Part shown: positions 9,068-19,052 of the stretch, piece after piece | Layout of the letters: each line of letters begins with the position of its first letter | Numbering within the stretch: position 1 is the stretch's first letter | Source of the DNA: Polyangiaceae bacterium | Lineage (GTDB): Bacteria > Myxococcota_A > Polyangia > Polyangiales > Polyangiaceae | Length of the DNA: 44,750 nucleotides | Direction: 5' to 3' | Assembly: GCA_020848455.1 (NCBI GenBank) | Contig: JADLAB010000532.1 | Coordinates: 1 to 44,750, forward strand | Made by a program: the position numbers and the translations under genes | Notes under the pieces: generated by a model | What the model was told of the DNA's origin: nothing | What the model saw: the letters and a program-made list of their open reading frames with translations, nothing else | Databases searched by the model: none

Positions 9068-11188
9068 CTACTCCTCGGTCTTGGCCTTCTGGGCCTCGGC
9101 CACGATCTTCTCCTGCACGTTGCGCGGCATCGGCGCGTAGGCCCTGAAGCGGGCGGTGTGCATGCCGCGCCCTTGCGTGAGGGAGCGCACCGTCGTCGCG
9201 TAGCGCAGGATCTCCACCTCGGGCGCCTGGGCCACGATCTTCTGGAACGGCCCCTCGGCCTGCATGCCCTGGATGCGCGCCCGGCGGGTGTTGAGATCGC
9301 CCATGACGTCGCCGGTGAACTCCTCGGGCACGAGCACCTCGACGTCCATGATGGGCTCGAGCAGGACCGGCTGCGCCTGCGCGAAGGCCTCGCGGAAGCA
9401 CATGCGCGACGCCGTCTTGAAGGCGTTCTCGTTGGAGTCGACGGCGTGCATCTTGCCGTCGAAGATGACGATGCGCACGCTGCCGCACGGGTAACCGGCG
9501 ATCGGGCCGGCATGCATCGCATCGAGCACGCCCTTCTGGATCGCGCCGAAGAAGCGCTTCATGTCGATGACGCCGCTGACGATGGCGTCCACGAACTCGA
9601 TCTCCGCGCCCCAGTCCGTCTTCACGCGCGTGGCATTGCGCACGTTGATGTCGGCCGGCGCCTGGTACTCGCCGCCGTCGAAGGGCTCGATCGCCATCGA
9701 GATGTCGGCGAACTGACCCGCGCCGCCGGTCTGCTTCTTGTGCCGGTAGCTCGCGCGCGCGCCGGTCTGCACCGTCTCGCGGTAGCTCACCTTCGGGACG
9801 GTGAGCGCCACGTCGACACCGAAGCGCGCCTTGAGCCGCGCGCGGGCGACCTCGAGCTGCATCTCGCCCACACCGGCGAGCAGCATCTGGTTCATCTCGC
9901 TGTCGTGGATGATGCGCAGCGAGGGATCTTCCTCCGCGATCTTGTGCAGACCGGCCGAGAGCTTGTCCTCCTCGCCGGCGTTGACGGCCTTGATGGCGCA
10001 CTTGTAGCGCGGCTCGGGGAACTCGATGGGAGCCACGACCACCTTGGCGCCCTTGTGGTGCAGCGTCTGGTTCGTGTGGGTGTCCTTGAGCTTGACCACC
10101 GCGCCGAGGTCGCCGGCCACGACCTTCTGCGCCGTGTCGCGGTGCCGCCCGTTGAGCGCGAAGATGCCGCCCAGGCGCTCGAGCGAGCTCGTCTGCGCGT
10201 TCTCGAGGTCCATGCCCTGCTCGAGCGTGCCCGAGGCGACCTTGAGGAAGGAGTAGTCGCCCACGTGCTGCTCGGTGAGCGTGCGGTACACGAAGGCCAC
10301 GGGCTCGCCCGCCGCGTCGCACGCGATCGTGCCGCCGTCCACCGTCGGCGTGGCCGGGGCGTCGAGCGGGGACGGGCACAGTGCGGAGAGCAGCGCGCAC
10401 AGCCGCCCGATGCCGACCTGCTCGCTCGCGCTCGTCAGCAGGATCGGGAAGATCTGGCGCGCCTTCACCGCGGCCCGGAGCCCGGTCTGCAGCTCGTCCT
10501 CGCTGAGACCGCCCTGCTCGAGGTAGCGCTCCATCAGCGCCTCGTCGTTCTCGGCCACCATCTCGACGAGCGCGGTGCGCAGGGCCTCGGCGTCGCTCTT
10601 GGCGGTGCCCTCGAGCTCGGCCACGTCGGGCTCGAGCTTGCTCTTGTGGAAGGTGAGCTTCTTCATCGACAGGATGTCGACGAGGCTGTGCCCGCCGCCG
10701 GGCGTCTGCAGCACCGTGGCGCCGCGGCCGAAGCGCTCCTTGATGCCCGCGACGACGGCGTCGAAGTCGCCGTCCCTGTCGCAGTGGTTCAGCACCATGA
10801 TGACCGGCTTCTGCGCCTTCTCGGCGTAGCCCCACGACAGCTCGGTGCCCACCTGCACGCCGTCGGCCGCGCTCATGAGCAAGACGGCCGCGTCGGCGAC
10901 GCGCATCGAGGCCACGACCTCGCCCACGAAGTCCGGATAGCCCGGCGCGTCGATGATGTTGAGCTTCGTGCCCTTGTGCTCGACGTGCAGGAGCGAGGCG
11001 AAGATGCTCATCTTCCGCTGCGTCTCGACGTCGTGGTAGTCGCTGACGGTCGACCCTTCGTCGAGCGACCCCATCCGGCTGATCGCGCCCGTCGCGTGGA
11101 GCATCGCCTCGCAGAGCAGCGTCTTGCCGCTGCCCTGATGCCCCACGAAGACCACGTTTCGGATGTCGCCAGAATCGTAGACTTTCAT
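9068..11188 (-). CDS. fusA: Elongation factor G-like translational GTPase with divergent G motifs
   Basis: Full-length EF-G architecture (706 residues): GTPase domain, domain II, and domains III-V ending with the EF-G C-terminal fold (ARIQGMQAEGPFQKIVAQAPEV). The G motifs differ from canonical EF-G: G1 is GHQGSGKT (16-23) rather than AHxDxGKT, G3 is DAPGYPDF with Tyr84 at the catalytic His position, and G4 is NHCD (134-137) instead of NKxD. These changes match the EF-G-2 type paralogues (for example mycobacterial FusA2 and Thermus EF-G-2). So it is probably not the housekeeping EF-G; no rpsL, rpsG or tuf is adjacent. Its role may be in ribosome rescue, recycling or stress, which is inference. 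It stands as a single gene. Confidence 0.9.
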   Translation of the reverse strand: MKVYDSGDIRNVVFVGHQGSGKTLLCEAMLHATGAISRMGSLDEGSTVSDYHDVETQRKMSIFASLLHVEHKGTKLNIIDAPGYPDFVGEVVASMRVADAAVLLMSAADGVQVGTELSWGYAEKAQKPVIMVLNHCDRDGDFDAVVAGIKERFGRGATVLQTPGGGHSLVDILSMKKLTFHKSKLEPDVAELEGTAKSDAEALRTALVEMVAENDEALMERYLEQGGLSEDELQTGLRAAVKARQIFPILLTSASEQVGIGRLCALLSALCPSPLDAPATPTVDGGTIACDAAGEPVAFVYRTLTEQHVGDYSFLKVASGTLEQGMDLENAQTSSLERLGGIFALNGRHRDTAQKVVAGDLGAVVKLKDTHTNQTLHHKGAKVVVAPIEFPEPRYKCAIKAVNAGEEDKLSAGLHKIAEEDPSLRIIHDSEMNQMLLAGVGEMQLEVARARLKARFGVDVALTVPKVSYRETVQTGARASYRHKKQTGGAGQFADISMAIEPFDGGEYQAPADINVRNATRVKTDWGAEIEFVDAIVSGVIDMKRFFGAIQKGVLDAMHAGPIAGYPCGSVRIVIFDGKMHAVDSNENAFKTASRMCFREAFAQAQPVLLEPIMDVEVLVPEEFTGDVMGDLNTRRARIQGMQAEGPFQKIVAQAPEVEILRYATTVRSLTQGRGMHTARFRAYAPMPRNVQEKIVAEAQKAKTEE

Positions 11189-11400: not shown

Positions 11401-12012
11401 TCAGCCGCCGTCGCTCTTGCGGACCAGCAGATGGTACTTGCCGAACTCGCACTGCCCCAGCGTGTAGAGCACCTCGATGAGCAGGCGGTACGGCGTCTCG
11501 GCGTCGGCGACGATGATCGCCTCGGAGGTCGAGGTGTCGAGGTTGCGGCTGGCGCGCAGGCGCTTGTCGAACTCACGCACGCTCTGGAGCGCGTTGGCCA
11601 GGGGCACGATGTAGAGGTCGCCCGGCTGGCCGCTGCGCTTGTGCCGGGCGTCGAGCCCGGACTGCATCAACGACTCGCGGCTCGGGAGCTCCACCACCGG
11701 GTCCGAGCCGTCGCCGACCAGGATGGCGCTCTTCGAGATCGTCACGCGCACGCCCTCTTGAGCGGGCTCGTCGCTCATCACGCTGCGCGGCAGGGTGAGG
11801 TCCTGCGACTCCGCGATGGACGTCGCCGACGACGCCATGCTCTGCAGCAGGAAGACCAGGATGATCGTCATCAGGTCGAGCAGCGCCGTGATGTTGAGGA
11901 AGTCGACCTCGGTCTCGCGCTTGTTCTTGCGGATCGCCAGGCGCAGCGCCGCCTTGTACCTGACCATGCTCGCCTTGGGCGCGGCAGATCGCACGGATGC
12001 GGGGGAGGTCAT
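11401..12012 (-). CDS. ExbD/TolR-family biopolymer transport protein (left operon, third gene)
   Basis: 203-residue inner-membrane protein with a basic cytosolic N-terminus, a single transmembrane helix at about 41-59, and a periplasmic domain. The helix contains the conserved proton-path aspartate (Asp46, in ALLDLMTIILVF). The periplasmic domain ends in an ExbD-like segment (AIIVADAETPYRLLIEVLYTLG). From family knowledge, ExbD/TolR/MotB-like proteins pair with ExbB/TolQ/MotA to turn proton flow into force across the envelope. Its ATG overlaps the stop of the preceding ExbD by 4 bp, so the two are translationally coupled. No peptidoglycan-binding OmpA-like domain is present. Confidence 0.88.
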   Translation of the reverse strand: MTSPASVRSAAPKASMVRYKAALRLAIRKNKRETEVDFLNITALLDLMTIILVFLLQSMASSATSIAESQDLTLPRSVMSDEPAQEGVRVTISKSAILVGDGSDPVVELPSRESLMQSGLDARHKRSGQPGDLYIVPLANALQSVREFDKRLRASRNLDTSTSEAIIVADAETPYRLLIEVLYTLGQCEFGKYHLLVRKSDGG

Positions 12013-12617
12013 CGCGCTTGTCCGAAGTGGATGTCGGGGAACAGGCAGCCGGTCCGGTCGCCGTCTTCCTTGGTCGGCGGGTCGCAGCGACCCAGGTCGT
12101 CACGCCGCAGGGCGTCGATGACCTCGATGATCTCGCGATAGGGCGTGCCCGGGTTCCCGGTCACGGTGACCTGGGTCTCCTCGGCGAAACGCTCGTTCTG
12201 ACTCTTGAGGAAGCGGGCACAGCGGGTGATCTCCGCAAGGTTGTGGTGCCCGTCCGACAGGCGCGGCACGGTGATGCCCGAGCCGAGCGAAGCGCAGCCG
12301 GTGTCGATCTGCCCGCCCGCCGTCTTCAGCGTGACGCCGTCGCTCACCACGAGCGCCACCAAGTTGAGCGCCTTGCTCGAGGCGCGCTCGTGAGGCTTGC
12401 CGCCCCCGAGCGAGGGCGGCTCGGAGTCGATGGTCGAGTAGAAGATCACCGCCAGCGACGTCATCACGAACACGACGATGTTCATGATGATGTCGAGGTA
12501 GGGGATGATGTTGAGCTCGCCCGCCTCGTCACCCGGCGCCGGCTCCTTGGGCCGCGCCAGGCGCCGGATCTTCGAGCGCTGAGCCGGGCTCAGCGGATGG
12601 TCTTGCGGGGTGTCCAC
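12009..12617 (-). CDS. ExbD/TolR-family biopolymer transport protein (left operon, second gene)
   Basis: 202 residues with one transmembrane helix (about 40-60) carrying the conserved Asp42 in PYLDIIMNIVVFV. The cytosolic N-terminus is charged and the periplasmic part contains two cysteines, at TGCAS and ITRCARF. ITVTGNPGTPYREIIEVIDALR-type wording near the end is the ExbD signature region. It begins 4 bp after the ExbB/TolQ-like stop and overlaps the next ExbD by 4 bp (ATGA). Two different ExbD paralogues following one ExbB suggests a heteromeric stator partner rather than a simple duplication, since the two are weakly similar outside the helix. Confidence 0.88.
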   Translation of the reverse strand: MDTPQDHPLSPAQRSKIRRLARPKEPAPGDEAGELNIIPYLDIIMNIVVFVMTSLAVIFYSTIDSEPPSLGGGKPHERASSKALNLVALVVSDGVTLKTAGGQIDTGCASLGSGITVPRLSDGHHNLAEITRCARFLKSQNERFAEETQVTVTGNPGTPYREIIEVIDALRRDDLGRCDPPTKEDGDRTGCLFPDIHFGQAR

Positions 12618-12621
12618 CGCG

Positions 12622-13299
12622 TCAGGCCGCAGGCTTGGACGTGATCGTCAGCAGGTTGAAGACGCGCTCGCTCGTGGACTCCAGGTCGTGAACGATGTTC
12701 TTCGCGCGCCCGTGCAGCAGCACGTGGAAGATCATGCACACGACGGCGATCGCGAGGCCGAAGAACGTGTTGTACATGGCCTCCGCGATGCCGTTCGTCA
12801 GGAACTCCTGCTTCTTCGAGGCGCTCATGTCCTGGCCCGACAGTGCCGCGAACGCCGTGATGAGGCCGAAGACCGTGCCGACGAGGCCGATCAGCGTGGC
12901 GATGTTCGCGAGCGACCACAGCGTGCCGACGCGTGCTTCCACGCGCGGGCGCAGCTCGGAGAGCTTCTCGCTCAGCGCGGCGTCGATCTCGTCGGCGCCC
13001 TTGTTGGCGTGCGTGAGGCCCGCGCGCACGAGCTGGAGGATGGGGTAGTCGGACGCGTCGCACAGCTTGATGGCGCGGTCGATGTTGCCGTTCACGACGA
13101 GCTTCTTGATCTGGGCGAAGAACTCCTTCGAGTTCACCCGATACCGGCCCATCTGGAACACGAACCGCTCGACCACGATCGTGATCACCACCACCGAGGT
13201 GATGACGTTCAGCAACAGGAACGTCGGGTTGTGCTTGATCGCGTTGAGCAAGCCGCCTTGGCTCCCGCCCTCGGCGGCGTACATCAGCAGAGCATGCAT
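12622..13299 (-). CDS. MotA/TolQ/ExbB-family proton channel protein (left operon, first gene)
   Basis: 225-residue inner-membrane protein. TM1 is about 26-48; a cytosolic loop follows with the family pattern of short helices (PILQLVRAGLTHANKG); then TM2 and TM3 contain GLVGTVFGLI and GIAEAMYNTFFGLAIAVV. The conserved polar Thr residues of the proton path are present. I start at the ATG at 13299 because GGAGG sits about 10 bp upstream and the sequence MHALLMYAAEGG lines up with the right-hand paralogue MHALWEAFQEGG. A frame extending to 13353 is not needed. It leads an operon with two ExbD genes and is divergent from a second such operon. Confidence 0.9.
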   Translation of the reverse strand: MHALLMYAAEGGSQGGLLNAIKHNPTFLLLNVITSVVVITIVVERFVFQMGRYRVNSKEFFAQIKKLVVNGNIDRAIKLCDASDYPILQLVRAGLTHANKGADEIDAALSEKLSELRPRVEARVGTLWSLANIATLIGLVGTVFGLITAFAALSGQDMSASKKQEFLTNGIAEAMYNTFFGLAIAVVCMIFHVLLHGRAKNIVHDLESTSERVFNLLTITSKPAA

Positions 13300-13501
13300 C
13301 CTGTCGGCCTCCAACGAGCCCTCGCAACGGGCCCGGGCTGGCACTCTGCGCACCGCTCCCGCGGCGTGGCCAGCGTGTCTTCGTCGTCACCGTCCGACGC
13401 TGCCCGCCACCGAGACGCGCGCCCTGCGCGCGCATGAGTGATCGAGCCACGCCGCCTGCTCCACACAGCTCGAGAGCGAGTCCGGGGGAGGAAGCGCTCG
13501 G

Positions 13502-13531
13502 ACTATACCGGGAGCGTTCGGGGATAAGCAA
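13502..13531 (-). promoter_or_regulatory. Candidate sigma-70 promoter for the left ExbBDD operon
   Basis: On the minus strand TTGCTT (13526-13531) and TATAGT (13502-13507) are separated by 18 bp. The -10 element is the best match in the gap. The predicted leader is about 200 nt to the ATG at 13299. Confidence 0.35.
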
Positions 13532-13754
13532 GCCGCGCTGCGCACTTCTGCGCGTCTTGTCGGGCGCGTCCGATCGCGCGGCGCGGGCGGGGGCGCCGAC
13601 CGGGCGCGGCGACGCAAGCTCATCGCGACGCATGCGGGCGCACGCGGCGGGTCGAGCGCGGCGCGGCCTGCCAACGTCGCGACAATTTTGCGTTCGGCCT
13701 GTGCTCGAGCGGTGCGGTCGAGGTGCCGGCGCGGCGGAAAGTCGAAAACTTCTC

Positions 13755-13784
13755 TTGACGAGGTCGCCGCATCGTCGCGAAGAT
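13755..13784 (+). promoter_or_regulatory. Weak candidate promoter for the right ExbBDD operon
   Basis: TTGACG at 13755-13760, an 18-bp spacer and GAAGAT at 13779-13784. The -35 element is good and the -10 poor. The leader to 14063 would be about 270 nt. Confidence 0.2.
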
Positions 13785-14062
13785 GCGCTGTACCGCAGGC
13801 GGGTCTCGGGCCGCTGCGGATGCATGGGAGCGACAGAACGACACACACGCGCGTGAGCACGTTCACGAAGACGGCTGGCGACTGGGGTCGCCGGACGGAG
13901 TTCGAATGCCGGAAGGTCCGCGGCGTGGCGGCTCGTGCCGGTCGGCGGCGACGACACACAGCGCCGCGACACCGCAGCTGGCTTCGACTCTTTTCGTGAC
14001 GAGTCCGGGAACTCCGGCGCGCGCTCGGGTGTCAAAACAGGGATCGGAGGTTCGGAAGGGCG

Positions 14063-14725
14063 ATGCACGCGTTGTGGGAGGCATTCCAAGAAGGCGGATG
14101 GGGCATGTACCCCATCTTGTTCTGGTCGGTGGTGACCATCGGCATCATCGTCGAGCGCGCCCTGTATCTGTTCGGCTCCTCGATCAACAAGGAGATGTTC
14201 CTGGCGACCATGCAGAAGTGCATTCTTGCCGGAGACATCGCCAAGGCGGTCAAGGTGTGCTCGGCGCAGAACGCACCGCTCGCCCGCATCGTCCAGGCGG
14301 GCCTCGTCAAGGTCAACCGGCCGGACGAAGAGGTGCAGGCTGCGATGGACGAGGCAGCGCTGCGCGAGATGCCGAAGATCGCGGCGCGCACGCAGTTCCT
14401 CGGCCTGCTCGCCAACCTCGCCATGCTCTCGGGCTTGCTCGGGACCGTGACGGGGCTCATCAAGTCCTTCGGGGCCGTGTCGGCGAAGAGCGTCGACCCG
14501 AGTCAGAAGGCGACGATTCTGGCGCAAGGCATCTCGGAGGCCATGAACTGCACGGCCTTCGGGCTCGGTGTGGCGATCGTGGGCCTCATCGGCTTCGCGA
14601 TCCTGAACGGCAGGACGCAGAAGATCGAGGACGACATCAACTCCGCCTCCGTCCAGGTGCTGAACCTGGTGGTGGCGAATCGCGAGAAGGTGAACCTCGC
14701 CGGCCTCAACCAGCAGGCGGCGTAG
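14063..14725 (+). CDS. MotA/TolQ/ExbB-family proton channel protein (right operon, first gene)
   Basis: 220 residues with the same architecture as the left paralogue: TM1 right after the start (YPILFWSVVTIGIIVERALYL), a cytosolic loop with PLARIVQAGL, then TM2/TM3 with GLLGTVTGLIKSF and GISEAMNCTAFGLGVAIV. Polar proton-path residues are conserved. GGAAGGGCG stands directly before the ATG. The next gene, an ExbD, starts 125 bp downstream. It probably forms the stator with the two following ExbD proteins; coupling to TonB, Tol or gliding-type machinery cannot be told from sequence. Confidence 0.9.
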   Translation: MHALWEAFQEGGWGMYPILFWSVVTIGIIVERALYLFGSSINKEMFLATMQKCILAGDIAKAVKVCSAQNAPLARIVQAGLVKVNRPDEEVQAAMDEAALREMPKIAARTQFLGLLANLAMLSGLLGTVTGLIKSFGAVSAKSVDPSQKATILAQGISEAMNCTAFGLGVAIVGLIGFAILNGRTQKIEDDINSASVQVLNLVVANREKVNLAGLNQQAA

Positions 14726-14850
14726 GTTCGCGGGGCTCCCGTGCAGCGGCGGGGGCGGCGCAAGCCGCCCTCGCCCGTCGTGCCGGAGCCGGACGGGCGT
14801 GAGGCACTGACCTCGGAGCCGACGGGCTTCGCGGACCGAAGGAGTGGCCG

Positions 14851-15408
14851 GTGGGTGGTGTAGACGTAGGCGGTGGTGGCGGCGGCAAACGGGCGGTGAA
14901 CGCGGACATCAACATGATTCCGTTCATCGATCTGTTGATGGTGACGATCGCGTTCCTGCTCATCACGGCCGTGTGGGTCACCAACTCCCGCATGAACGCG
15001 AACGCGCAGGTCCCCGGCCCGCCCAACACCGAGCCGACCGAGGTGACGACCCCGGAGAAGATCCTGCACCTCCACGTCGAGGAGTTCGAGTTCAAGCTGG
15101 TCTGGCAGCAGGGCTCGACGGTCGTGGCGGAGGACAAGGTCCCGAAGCAGGAGCAGACGGACAAGGAGTTCGTGAAGTACGGCGACCTCGCCGTGAAGAT
15201 TGCCGAGCAGTGGCAGCAGCACGGCGGCCATCAGGATCCCAGCGATCAGAAGACCGACCAGTGCGTGGTCCACGCCGACAACAAGCTCCCGTTCCGCGAG
15301 CTCGTCGGCGTGCTCGACGCCATCTACGACAAGAAGCGCGAGCAGAACCAGGCCGACGGCACGATCAAGAACGTGCCCGTGTTCAACATGTCGTTCTCGA
15401 TCCGCTGA
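14851..15408 (+). CDS. ExbD/TolR-family biopolymer transport protein (right operon, second gene)
   Basis: 185 residues from a GTG with GGAG 8 bp upstream. A Gly-rich N-terminus precedes the transmembrane helix (about 21-44), which has the conserved Asp27 (PFIDLLMVTIAFLL). The periplasmic domain is Glu/Lys/Gln-rich and closes with LPFRELVGVLDAIYDKK, the ExbD-type segment. It is separated by 48 bp from the following ExbD paralogue. The Gly run at the N-terminus is low-complexity and could be misread as a different start; the Shine-Dalgarno supports this one. Confidence 0.88.
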   Translation: MGGVDVGGGGGGKRAVNADINMIPFIDLLMVTIAFLLITAVWVTNSRMNANAQVPGPPNTEPTEVTTPEKILHLHVEEFEFKLVWQQGSTVVAEDKVPKQEQTDKEFVKYGDLAVKIAEQWQQHGGHQDPSDQKTDQCVVHADNKLPFRELVGVLDAIYDKKREQNQADGTIKNVPVFNMSFSIR

Positions 15409-15456
15409 GTCGCGCGAGACGACACCCCAAGCTCGAGCCAGAATCCGGAGCGCATC

Positions 15457-16059
15457 GTGTCCGACCACGCCAAGGTCATCAAGAAGCACCACGACCACCA
15501 CGCACACGCCATTGCCAAGCCGGGCAAGAGGCTGATGCACCATGTGCCGCTCGCCTTCGTGCTGAAGAAGGTGCTCGGGCACGGTGGGCGCAACGTCAAC
15601 ACCGCGCTCAACCTCACCTCGTACATCGACTTCCTCCTGGTGACGGTCATCTTCCTCTTGATGAGCTTCTCGGCGGGCGGCGAGATCACCGTCGACAAGA
15701 GCATCACGCTGCCGAACGCCGAGAACGTCGAGGACGTCATCGAGGCGCCCATGGTGGCCGTGAACGGGCAGAGCGTCATGGTGGACGGCACGCCGGCCGG
15801 CAACACCCGCGCGATCCGCGACGCCGGCAAGGTGCAGAAGGTCGACGAGCTCTTCGAGCTCCTGAAGCGCAAGAAGGAGCTCTGGTCGAGCTTCCACCCC
15901 GACAAGGCCTTCCCGGGCGTCGCCATCCTGCAGGTCGACGTCGACGTCGAGGCACTCGTCGTGAAGAGCGTCTTCCAGACCGCGGCGTTCGCCGGCTACC
16001 CGAACATCAGCTTCATGGTGCGCAAGCGCGCGAAGGCTGGCGGCGGCGAGGGCGGCTGA
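15457..16059 (+). CDS. ExbD/TolR-family protein with His-rich cytosolic N-terminus (right operon, third gene)
   Basis: 200 residues from a GTG with a GGAG at -10. The first 30 residues are extremely rich in His and Lys (VIKKHHDHHAHAIAKPGK, then LMHH), which is not usual for ExbD. The transmembrane helix (about 54-72) has the conserved Asp58 in SYIDFLLVTVIFLL. The periplasmic part follows ExbD layout, with QTAAFAGYPNISFMVRKR near the end. The His segment could bind metal or respond to cytosolic pH; this is inference. Third gene of the right operon. Confidence 0.86.
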   Translation: MSDHAKVIKKHHDHHAHAIAKPGKRLMHHVPLAFVLKKVLGHGGRNVNTALNLTSYIDFLLVTVIFLLMSFSAGGEITVDKSITLPNAENVEDVIEAPMVAVNGQSVMVDGTPAGNTRAIRDAGKVQKVDELFELLKRKKELWSSFHPDKAFPGVAILQVDVDVEALVVKSVFQTAAFAGYPNISFMVRKRAKAGGGEGG

Positions 16060-16137
16060 GACCGGCCGCGACGTGACGCGCCCACTGGCGCGGCAACGGC
16101 GCGCACAGCCCCAGCACGGTGGCACCAGGAGGAAGCG

Positions 16138-17217
16138 ATGAGCTCCGCGTCGCCACCCACCGGATCGCGGCAGCGTGCGCCCGACGCACCGCGCGGCTTG
16201 CCGTCCATCGCCGAAGCGCGCGCGGCCCGCGGCCGCATGCGCTGGTTTCCGCCCAAGTTCTGGGCCGCGGCCGCCGTGGTCCTCGGGGCGTCGGTGGTCG
16301 TCTGGTGGAAGCTCGACAGCGACAAGCTCCACAAGGCGCGCAACGAGCTCTTGACCCGCCAGCGCGAGACGGCGGCCGAGCTCGCGCCGAAGTGGCTGCC
16401 GCTGCGCGACAAGGCCGAGGCCTGGACGGTCGCGTGCGCCGGCGAGCACAAGGAGCTCATCGACCCCGACGTGGGCAAGGCGTGGGATTTCCGCGGTCTC
16501 GATGGCCTCTACGTGCGCCTCGGCAAGGTGAACGCGGTGGACGCCGAGGCGGTGCGCAAGGCCACGAAGGAGTCGCTCCACGACGCCTTCACCGCCTGCC
16601 TCTGGACCGGCGCGAACCCGAGCCCCCTCGCGGGCCCGGCCTGCGAGACGTCGCGCAACTGCGAGGTCCGGCAGTTCTGCAACGAGTTCGAGCACTGCGC
16701 CGAGTATGCCCAGCCGTACAACCTCAGCCTCGCATACCGCACGATGAAGGTTCTCTCGACCGAGTGGGTCGAGGAGGTGCAGGGCATCAGCGACAAGCTC
16801 ATCCTGCGCGCCGCGGTGGCCACCTACGACGACGCCGTGCAGTTCGACATCCCCGTGGCCGTCGACCTCTTGGCGCGCGCCAAGTACTTCATGGCAGTCG
16901 TCGACGAGCCGGCCGACGAGGCCGAGGAGCCCGAGCCGGAGCCCGCGGACGCCGGGACGCGCGCGACCCGTGACGTACGCGGCATTCCGTCCGGTCCGCA
17001 CATGGCGCGCGTGTGCGTGTGGCGCCTCGAGGACGAGAAGCCGATGCTCGTCATCCGGCGCGAGGCGGCGGGCTCGCTCGAGGGACCGGGCGCGGCGCTG
17101 GCCGACGCCAAGTCGCGGCGCGCCCAGCAGATGCAGGCCAACAGCTGCGCGCTCGCCGTCGCGGTGCGCAGCGCGATAGGTGACGTCAAGGGCGACCTCC
17201 CGCTGCAGCGGCGCTGA
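16138..17217 (+). CDS. Membrane-anchored protein of unknown function with a Cys-x5 ladder
   Basis: 359 residues, not recognised. A basic, Pro-rich cytosolic N-terminus (1-38) is followed by one transmembrane helix (about 39-57) and a large C-terminal domain, predicted periplasmic by the positive-inside rule. The domain contains six early cysteines (100, 154, 169, 175, 181, 187); the last four are spaced exactly six apart (CETSRNCEVRQFCNEFEHC). Residues 285-305 form an acidic linker (EPADEAEEPEPEPAD), followed by a short C-terminal domain. AGGAGG lies 7 bp before the ATG. It follows the ExbD gene by 78 bp and precedes a membrane protein by 5 bp, so it sits in the right ExbBDD operon and may be a motor partner. 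Confidence 0.75.
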   Translation: MSSASPPTGSRQRAPDAPRGLPSIAEARAARGRMRWFPPKFWAAAAVVLGASVVVWWKLDSDKLHKARNELLTRQRETAAELAPKWLPLRDKAEAWTVACAGEHKELIDPDVGKAWDFRGLDGLYVRLGKVNAVDAEAVRKATKESLHDAFTACLWTGANPSPLAGPACETSRNCEVRQFCNEFEHCAEYAQPYNLSLAYRTMKVLSTEWVEEVQGISDKLILRAAVATYDDAVQFDIPVAVDLLARAKYFMAVVDEPADEAEEPEPEPADAGTRATRDVRGIPSGPHMARVCVWRLEDEKPMLVIRREAAGSLEGPGAALADAKSRRAQQMQANSCALAVAVRSAIGDVKGDLPLQRR

Positions 17218-17222
17218 GGGCG

Positions 17223-19052
17223 GTGGTGGGCGAGCGGCTGCGCGCCTGGTTCGGGCCGTTGCGGCGGCGGCCATGGTCGGGCGGGGCCGCGCTCGTCGCG
17301 CCCATCGCCGCCTGCGCGCTCGCCGTCATCGTGGTGGCGCCCTGGTTCGAGAACCTGCGCACCTTCGGCTTCCACGACTGGGACGCGGTGACGTCGTTCC
17401 GGTACCTCGTGAAGAAATCGCTGCTCGAGCACGGCGAGTTCCCGGGCTGGAACCCGTACGCCTGCGGCGGCTACCCGCTCTGGGGCTACGTCGAGGGCGG
17501 CACCAACCTCGTGTCGCCGTGGCTGCCGTTCTACCTGCTCGCGCCGCTGCCGGTGGCTCTGCGCATCGAGGTGCTCGGGATGGCGCTCGTCGCCGCGCTC
17601 GGCGCCTACGTGCTCGCCGGGCGCTTCACGACGAGCAGCGCCGCCCGTCTGCTCGTGGCGGCGCTGTGGGCCGTCAACGGACGCTGGGGCCTGCAGGCCG
17701 CCTCCGGGCATGCCTGGCACCTCGCCTATGGCTACCTGCCCTGGTGCCTCTACTTCTTCGAGCGCGCGCGCGGCTCGCTCGCCGTGCGCGACATCGCGCT
17801 CACCGGAGGCGTGTTCGCGCTCCTGCTCTACGGCGGGGGGATCTACCCCCTGCCGCACACCGCGCTCGCCGTGGGCCTCTACGCCCTCGTCATGGCGTGG
17901 CAGGAGCGGAGCCTGCGCCCGATCGTGGCGCTCGCGCTCGCGGGGCTCGTCGGGCTCGGGCTCGCGGCCCCGAAGCTCCTGCCCGTGCTCGACACCTTCG
18001 CCGACGACCCACGCCTGATCGAGTCGACCGAGCGTCTCGATCTCGGCGCCTTCGTGACGCTCCTGACGAGTCGCGATCAGGGCTTCCACGCGCGGCCCGC
18101 GCGGGTCGCGCCCTACGGGTGGCACGAGTGGGGCATGTACGTCTCGACGGCGGGCGTCGTGCTGCTCGCGGCGGCCTTCGTGGTCGCGGAGGGGCGGCGC
18201 GAGCGCGCCCTCAAGGCCGTCGGGGCGTTCTTCGTCGTGCTCGGCTTCGGGGCCTTCCACGCTTCGGCGCCGTGGACCCTGATGCACGAGAAGCTGCCGC
18301 TCTTCCGCTCGCAGCACGTGCCTTCGCGCTTCCTCTACCCGGCCGTGCTCCTGCTGGCGCTGCCGCTCGCGGCGGCCATCGGGCGCTTCGTCGCGCGGCG
18401 CCGCCTGGGCATGCCGTGGCTCGACCTCGCGCTGCTCGTGCCCGCCTTCGTGCTCGGTGTGGACGTGGCGCTCGTGGCCCAGAAGCCGATGCGCGAGGCG
18501 ATGTGGATGGAGGCGCCGGCCATCCCCACGGGCCGCAGCTTCCACTTCGAGACGGAGCCGCCTTTCCAGTACCGCCGGCGCGACTGGGCGGGGCCGATGC
18601 TGCTCGCGATGTGGGGCAACACCGGCGTCATGAACTGCTACGGCGTGCCGCAGCCGACCGCGCCGGGCGCCCGTGCGATCTCGGCTCCGGACTACCGCGG
18701 CGAGGTGTGGCTCGCGGAGGGCGGCGGCCGCGCGGAGGTCGTGGCGCGGAGCCCCAACAGCGTCGAGGTTGCGGTCGAGGGCGCGGCGCCGGGCGCACGG
18801 CTCGTGCTCAACATGAACTTCCGGCGCGGCTGGGGCAGCGACGCCGGTGCGGTCGAGGCCTACGGCGGGGCGGTGAGCGTGCGTCTGCCGCCGCGCGAGG
18901 CGCCGGCGCGGGTCGTCTTCCGCTACCGTCCGCCCGGGCTGTACCTCGGGCTCGCGCTCGCGTTCGCGACCCTCGCCGCGATCTTCGCGGCGCGCCGCGG
19001 GCGGGCGAGCGGGGCTCGGCCGGACGTCGCCGCGTCGCGCCGGTGGTGGTAG
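17223..19052 (+). CDS. Polytopic membrane protein, YfhO/GT-C glycosyltransferase-like
   Basis: 609 residues with about ten to twelve hydrophobic helices. The first external loop contains FHDWDAVTSFRYLVKKSLLEHGEFPGWNPYACGGYP-like wording (shown here as DWD and WNPYACGGYP), typical of YfhO-like and 'pyruvoyl tetrahydropterin synthase-related' GT-C membrane proteins, in which an acidic loop-1 motif is catalytic. The C-terminal 120 residues form a soluble beta-rich domain before a last helix (GLYLGLALAFATLAAIFAA). It starts at a GTG 5 bp after the preceding stop. The likely role is transfer of a lipid-linked sugar to an envelope component; substrate unknown. Confidence 0.75.
   Translation: MVGERLRAWFGPLRRRPWSGGAALVAPIAACALAVIVVAPWFENLRTFGFHDWDAVTSFRYLVKKSLLEHGEFPGWNPYACGGYPLWGYVEGGTNLVSPWLPFYLLAPLPVALRIEVLGMALVAALGAYVLAGRFTTSSAARLLVAALWAVNGRWGLQAASGHAWHLAYGYLPWCLYFFERARGSLAVRDIALTGGVFALLLYGGGIYPLPHTALAVGLYALVMAWQERSLRPIVALALAGLVGLGLAAPKLLPVLDTFADDPRLIESTERLDLGAFVTLLTSRDQGFHARPARVAPYGWHEWGMYVSTAGVVLLAAAFVVAEGRRERALKAVGAFFVVLGFGAFHASAPWTLMHEKLPLFRSQHVPSRFLYPAVLLLALPLAAAIGRFVARRRLGMPWLDLALLVPAFVLGVDVALVAQKPMREAMWMEAPAIPTGRSFHFETEPPFQYRRRDWAGPMLLAMWGNTGVMNCYGVPQPTAPGARAISAPDYRGEVWLAEGGGRAEVVARSPNSVEVAVEGAAPGARLVLNMNFRRGWGSDAGAVEAYGGAVSVRLPPREAPARVVFRYRPPGLYLGLALAFATLAAIFAARRGRASGARPDVAASRRWW

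Follow-up and report, generated by a model that had tools for sequence, protein, structure and literature searches.

What kind of machine is encoded where two ExbB-type genes, each accompanied by two ExbD-type genes, stand head to head? We addressed this question for a Polyangiaceae bacterium (assembly GCA_020848455.1, contig JADLAB010000532.1), in which such a locus occupies positions 11401-17217 of the window, i.e. the whole 44,750-nucleotide stretch of DNA that was analysed, a part of a 9.2 Mb draft genome. The answer that we consider likely is that divergent operons here produce two co-expressed proton motors of the AglRQS kind: the plus-strand set would be the orthologue of AglRQS, which drives gliding and the assembly of the spore coat in Myxococcus, the minus-strand set the orthologue of MXAN_3003-3005, and a seventh protein, X, an accessory of the plus set. 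Sequence shows to which family the proteins belong, which orthologues they have, how the genes are ordered, which proton-path residues are kept and how far the locus is conserved; from these we infer motor action.

The block can be written as D1b-D1a-B1 | B2-D2a-D2b-X, with both operons reading outward. The minus-strand set consists of ExbB1, the MotA/TolQ/ExbB protein of MXAN_3003 type (12622-13353; PF01618, 87.6 bits), ExbD1a, the first ExbD, of MXAN_3004 type (12009-12617; PF02472, 27.0 bits), and ExbD1b, the second ExbD, of MXAN_3005 type (11401-12012; PF02472, 53.3 bits); the two ExbD genes overlap by 4 bases. The likelier start of ExbB1 is the ATG at 13299, not the GTG at 13353, because most of its relatives align only from about residue 16. 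This leaves a divergent intergenic region at 13300-14062; across 71 related loci the operon-to-operon gap has a median of 525 bases, measured between first-start open reading frames (ORFs). On the plus strand follow ExbB2 of AglR type (14063-14725; PF01618, 87.3 bits), ExbD2a of AglQ type (14851-15408; PF02472, 43.1 bits), ExbD2b of AglS type (15457-16059; PF02472, 32.5 bits), and, directly after the latter, the gene for X (16138-17217), a hitherto undescribed bitopic membrane protein of 359 residues whose ATG is preceded by the ribosome-binding sequence AGGAGG. All six motor proteins scored above the Pfam cut-offs, which bears out the arrangement proposed in the first-pass annotation, two head-to-head sets each of one ExbB and two dissimilar ExbDs; X lies within the same span and had gone undiscussed there. 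AlphaFold models ExbD1a with a single transmembrane (TM) helix and a periplasmic domain like that of an ExbD, and Cys108 and Cys133 of this protein are near-invariant.

Across the phylum, profiles built from Polyangiales proteins picked out two operon types, both made up of one ExbB gene and two ExbD genes arranged alike; most Myxococcia genomes contain one ExbB of each type. In the ExbB tree, type 1 has supports of 98/95 (99 for the subset from Myxococcia and Polyangia), type 2 a moderate 83/86, and the TolQ/ExbB group, which lies outside both types and includes the Escherichia coli proteins, 100/99. ExbB2 groups with AglR of Myxococcus and Anaeromyxobacter, apart from the MXAN_3003 type and from TolQ/ExbB, while ExbB1 and both minus-set ExbDs each group with a single counterpart in the second set of Myxococcus. 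In the Myxococcus genome G474 the type-2 proteins measure 245, 162 and 194 residues, the second of them carrying Asp28, and the published AglR, AglQ and AglS have the same lengths, the AglQ aspartate being D28. In that genome the type-2 set maps to 8.16 of 8.97 Mb and the second set to 3.54 Mb, positions that fit MXAN_6862 and MXAN_3003, and the same pair of sets is present in M. hansupus (G504). One-to-one matches between Myxococcus and window proteins stand at 57% identity for AglR and ExbB2, 38% for AglQ and D2a, 35% for AglS and D2b, 43% for 3003 and ExbB1, 29% for 3004 and D1a, and 34% for 3005 and D1b; D2a, D2b and D1b are the best matches of AglQ, AglS and the 3005-type protein. Trees and matches thus identify the plus set as the AglRQS orthologue and the minus set as the MXAN_3003-3005 orthologue, and so sharpen an earlier suggestion of kinship to AglRQS.

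The trees further indicate that the two sets are ancient paralogues. The ExbDs pair across the operons, D1a with D2a (support 88) and D1b with D2b (support 98), and therefore a one-plus-two operon was duplicated whole, with both ExbDs retained from then on. The plus set shares with AglRQS (M. xanthus MXAN_6862-6860) its clade, the R-Q-S order and the Asp and Thr residues; unlike AglRQS, it is linked head to head with a second motor and followed by X, no glt genes adjoin it, and its D2a has 185 residues against 162 in AglQ. The minus set agrees in clade and order with MXAN_3003-3005 (the second Agl-type set, M2), whereas the Myxococcia copy of the latter is found between topA and trmFO/xerC/hslV (genes named from their sequences) and not beside aglRQS.

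The proton-path residues are retained in both sets. Among 70-99 related loci, conservation is at least 97% for every one of the aspartates Asp46 (D1b), Asp42 (D1a), Asp27 (D2a, the equivalent of AglQ Asp28) and Asp58 (D2b), and the aspartate is present in 34 of 34 sequences examined for the 3005 type. The threonines equivalent to TolQ T145 and T178 (Thr128 and Thr164 in ExbB2) are invariant in 72 ExbB1 and 101 ExbB2 sequences. These counts uphold what had been noted of the aspartates in all four ExbDs and of the polar TM residues in both ExbBs. A natural departure occurs elsewhere: in nine type-1 operons the first ExbD has Asn at the site of the proton-path Asp and the second ExbD keeps its Asp (L163, L164, L169, L182, L183, L184, L186, L342 and L343, eight of them clearly within Glt-like clusters). 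This is the same exchange as the inert laboratory mutation AglQ D28N, and a homodimer of the Asn-form ExbD would be expected to be inert as well.

We compared 59 related genomes from twelve families, counting head-to-head cases by hand. ExbB1 and ExbB2 stand head to head on one contig in 50 of the 59, and in three more (G019, G023 and G034) contig ends fall between them; chance linkage of the two sets is therefore excluded. Only one of the two ExbBs was matched in G028, G035, G005 and G046, and neither in G002 and G009. Among twenty 20-kb Polyangiales neighbourhoods and the window, the seven genes are the only families common to nearly all, and the flanks vary. The complete block was found at 62 of the 101 loci examined, a set in which some genomes occur twice and many of the remaining loci are either truncated at a contig end or not from Polyangiales; complete cases include Sorangium cellulosum So ceGT47 (L223), Polyangium fumosum (L201) and a Sandaracinus metagenome-assembled genome (L213). 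The divergent arrangement is thus conserved in relatives, with no loss of synteny. Agl and Glt homologues of Sorangium and Haliangium were already known (Luciano et al. 2011, PMC3169522), and in the passages of that paper that were consulted we found no mention of the head-to-head unit or of X; what is new is an order-wide seven-gene unit with X.

Two neighbours in the window were considered as members of the unit and dropped, being not conserved at the locus in the relatives compared. One is an elongation factor G-like protein (9068-11188), encoded on the same strand about 210 bases after ExbD1b; the other is a membrane protein of 609 residues and no known family (17223-19052), whose gene begins 5 bases after the X stop. 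Several Polyangiales carry an additional ExbD2a, once with an ExbD2b too, beside the block (L203, L213, L221, L242, L222 and L088).

Protein X is present directly after ExbD2b in nearly all Polyangiales sampled and is virtually confined to them, three partial matches (E 0.0003-0.0008) being obtained outside the order. At least two genomes, G005 and G157, have ExbB2 and X and gave no ExbB1 match; since X is kept with ExbB2 where ExbB1 was not found, it is to be counted with the plus set. X scored above cut-off with none of the Pfam or NCBIfam models, and a profile search of PDB sequences gave no convincing match. In its AlphaFold model (predicted local distance difference test score, pLDDT, 88.6) a TM helix at about residues 39-57 runs straight into the periplasm as part of a continuous helix from 39 to 101, followed by an alpha/beta domain; the invariant Cys154 and Cys337 both lie in this domain and, going by the model, may form a disulphide. 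A fold search returned weak matches to a periplasmic fold of wide occurrence (PelC, CsgG, LptE, LpoB, PqiC and the TolB N-terminal domain), the nearest being lipoproteins of the periplasm and the outer membrane, all with Z at most 6.3 and no Foldseek E below 0.001. A second X-like gene, for a protein of 326 residues, is found in the same genome (G000:C227, 12738-13718; L372); in ten Polyangiaceae genomes such a gene forms a two-gene unit with an ORF of 540-1100 residues, away from any ExbB.

The known partners of such motors supply three candidate identities for X, and each was tried and rejected. As an axle of the ExbD or MotB type it would be expected to carry an aspartate in the membrane, and residues 41-57 of its TM helix hold neither an Asp nor any conserved acidic residue. 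As a Glt component it should resemble GltG or the AgmX/PglI tail, neither of which it matches. As a transducer of the TonB/TolA type it falls short in motif, linker and C-terminal domain: among 44 sequences its TM helix shows no conserved Ser-His-Leu-Ser (SHLS) pattern of the motor-binding kind described for TonB and TolA (PMC12204202), the model shows a continuous helix in place of a disordered or proline-rich linker, and no TonB_C domain was matched. A force transducer of a new type, analogous to TonB, TolA or GltG, would be in keeping with the bitopic topology, the adjacency to motor genes, the periplasmic domain and the appearance of the TolB N-terminal domain as one among many PDB similarities; against the missing pattern, linker and C-terminal domains (AgmX/PglI as well as TonB) and the weakness of all the structural matches, we hold this identity doubtful. 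Most likely, X would clamp or couple the AglRQS-type motor to a periplasmic or outer-membrane partner by way of its rigid helix.

How might the two sets work, and do they work together? In the mechanism we favour, each set would form a pentamer of its ExbB around one copy of each of its own ExbDs. Protons entering past the ExbD aspartate and the ExbB threonine ring would turn one part against the other, the ExbD periplasmic domains would grip the peptidoglycan, and the work would drive machinery in the envelope or at the surface. If M. xanthus is a guide, the force would most likely be carried outward by GltG-like proteins whose genes lie at other loci, in this order with help from X. One copy of each ExbD per pentamer would be the simplest reading, because both ExbDs predate the duplication and have persisted, because nine type-1 operons combine an Asn-form first ExbD with an Asp-form second, and because a fusion of ExbB to ExbD2b exists in another lineage.

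The plainest rival is that the locus encodes an ordinary energiser of the TonB-ExbBD or Tol-Pal kind, duplicated in a large genome. The sets do share PF01618, PF02472 and the general proton-motor principle with TolQR-TolA and ExbBD-TonB, and there are weak NCBIfam tolQ matches. The equivalog scores for tolQ, exbB, tolR and exbD are, however, all far below cut-off (the highest tolQ score is 67.6 bits, cut-off 221; the highest for tolR 30.7, cut-off 127.3; the highest for exbB 38.2, cut-off 206.2), the ExbB tree keeps the E. coli proteins apart, and each set here has two different ExbDs. No tolA, tonB, pal or tolB adjoins either set in the window or the compared neighbourhoods, by Pfam scan or by neighbourhood comparison, in line with the first reading of this DNA, and the genome has other ExbB/ExbD sets (C127, C618 and C202). 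We therefore reject membership in Tol-Pal and in TonB-ExbBD on scores, tree and neighbourhood, and regard this explanation as very improbable.

More demanding are the readings that differ in how closely the two sets are joined. They could form a single composite stator, or a double motor whose halves are physically paired, with subunits mixing across sets or with two pentamers bridged by X. Linkage kept throughout the order, and also seen at L150 and L154, which come from two further families of this class, speaks for such a union; but across most of the phylum, Myxococcia included, the sets lie apart as separate operons, G005 and G157 keep ExbB2 and X with no ExbB1 match, and the M. xanthus counterpart of the minus set argues the same way, since in published work MXAN_3004 proved dispensable there for motility and sporulation and MXAN_3003 showed no contact with GltG or NfsG. 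The proposal of the first-pass annotation that the sets are two parts of one composite stator accordingly lacks direct support, and we judge it quite unlikely. It is likewise unlikely, if slightly less so, that Polyangiales use a paired or composite motor whose AglRQS-type and MXAN_3003-type stators act jointly, X being a rigid coupler peculiar to this lineage that takes the place of GltG-type coupling in Myxococcus. At the other extreme, and as a sub-case of the explanation we prefer, two motors with separate tasks might merely share a divergent promoter region, by co-regulation or by history, with X serving the plus set only. The divergent order without mixed operons, the absence of ExbB1 matches where ExbB2 and X stay, and the place of X on the plus strand directly after ExbD2b all agree with it; the long retention of linkage in Polyangiales suggests more than history, although co-regulation alone could suffice. 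We think this a fair minority possibility.

The preferred reading, two co-expressed AglRQS-kind motors with X as an accessory of the plus set, has points to be set against it too. The orthologues were named by way of close Myxococcus genomes rather than M. xanthus DK1622, motor function in Polyangiales is predicted from homology, the 5:1:1 make-up is conjectural and the stoichiometry of AglRQS is itself not settled in the literature, and the role given to X is guessed from where its gene lies, from its topology and from a weak structural resemblance. The window genome's GltG-like protein (G000:C76) covers model positions 71-649 at 219.9 bits, against an NCBIfam cut-off of 650; the GltG-like proteins of this genome lie away from the locus, and AgmX/PglI tail matches number 28.

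The surroundings of the two operon types in other genomes give some context to these motors. In several families outside Polyangiales the type-1 operon is found inside clusters of GltC-, GltE- and GltG-like genes, long tetratricopeptide repeat proteins and a Wza-like exporter; the minus set is like these in having the type-1 ExbB-ExbD-ExbD operon and unlike them in that its first ExbD carries Asp where theirs carries Asn, and in having no glt genes adjacent. Type-2 operons in some genomes adjoin a GltG-like protein (one that was scanned scored 455 bits over the full GltG model, cut-off 650), in keeping with the contact between AglR and GltG demonstrated in M. xanthus. A HEAT-repeat lipoprotein-like gene, for a protein of 500-730 residues, follows the AglRQS-type operon in many non-Polyangiales genomes of the class (type-2 loci L147, L148, L149, L151, L153, L155, L157-L160, L162, L165, L166, L200 and L228); its product is a possible partner of the AglRQS-type motor, of which we have seen no description from Myxococcus. 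The natural ExbB-ExbD2b (AglR-AglS type) fusion, of 434-439 residues, occurs at three loci (L150, 10943-12247; L154, 11076-12395; L274, 11203-12507), in operons that carry two further ExbB2 copies and lie opposite a type-1 operon. The window genome also has orphan ExbD2a/ExbD2b copies without an ExbB (G000:C409, L191 1431-2312; G000:C231, L193 11848-12705), and its orphan D2b groups with the D2b of the window. Such orphans could be exchangeable axle subunits.

The second Myxococcus motor, which is without a known role, gains a conserved context from a block that ties both motors and X together, and X becomes a candidate for a new component of the motor. Three findings make the hypothesis of one copy of each ExbD per ExbB pentamer directly testable: the paralogy of both ExbDs, the Asp-to-Asn exchange and the natural ExbB-ExbD fusion.

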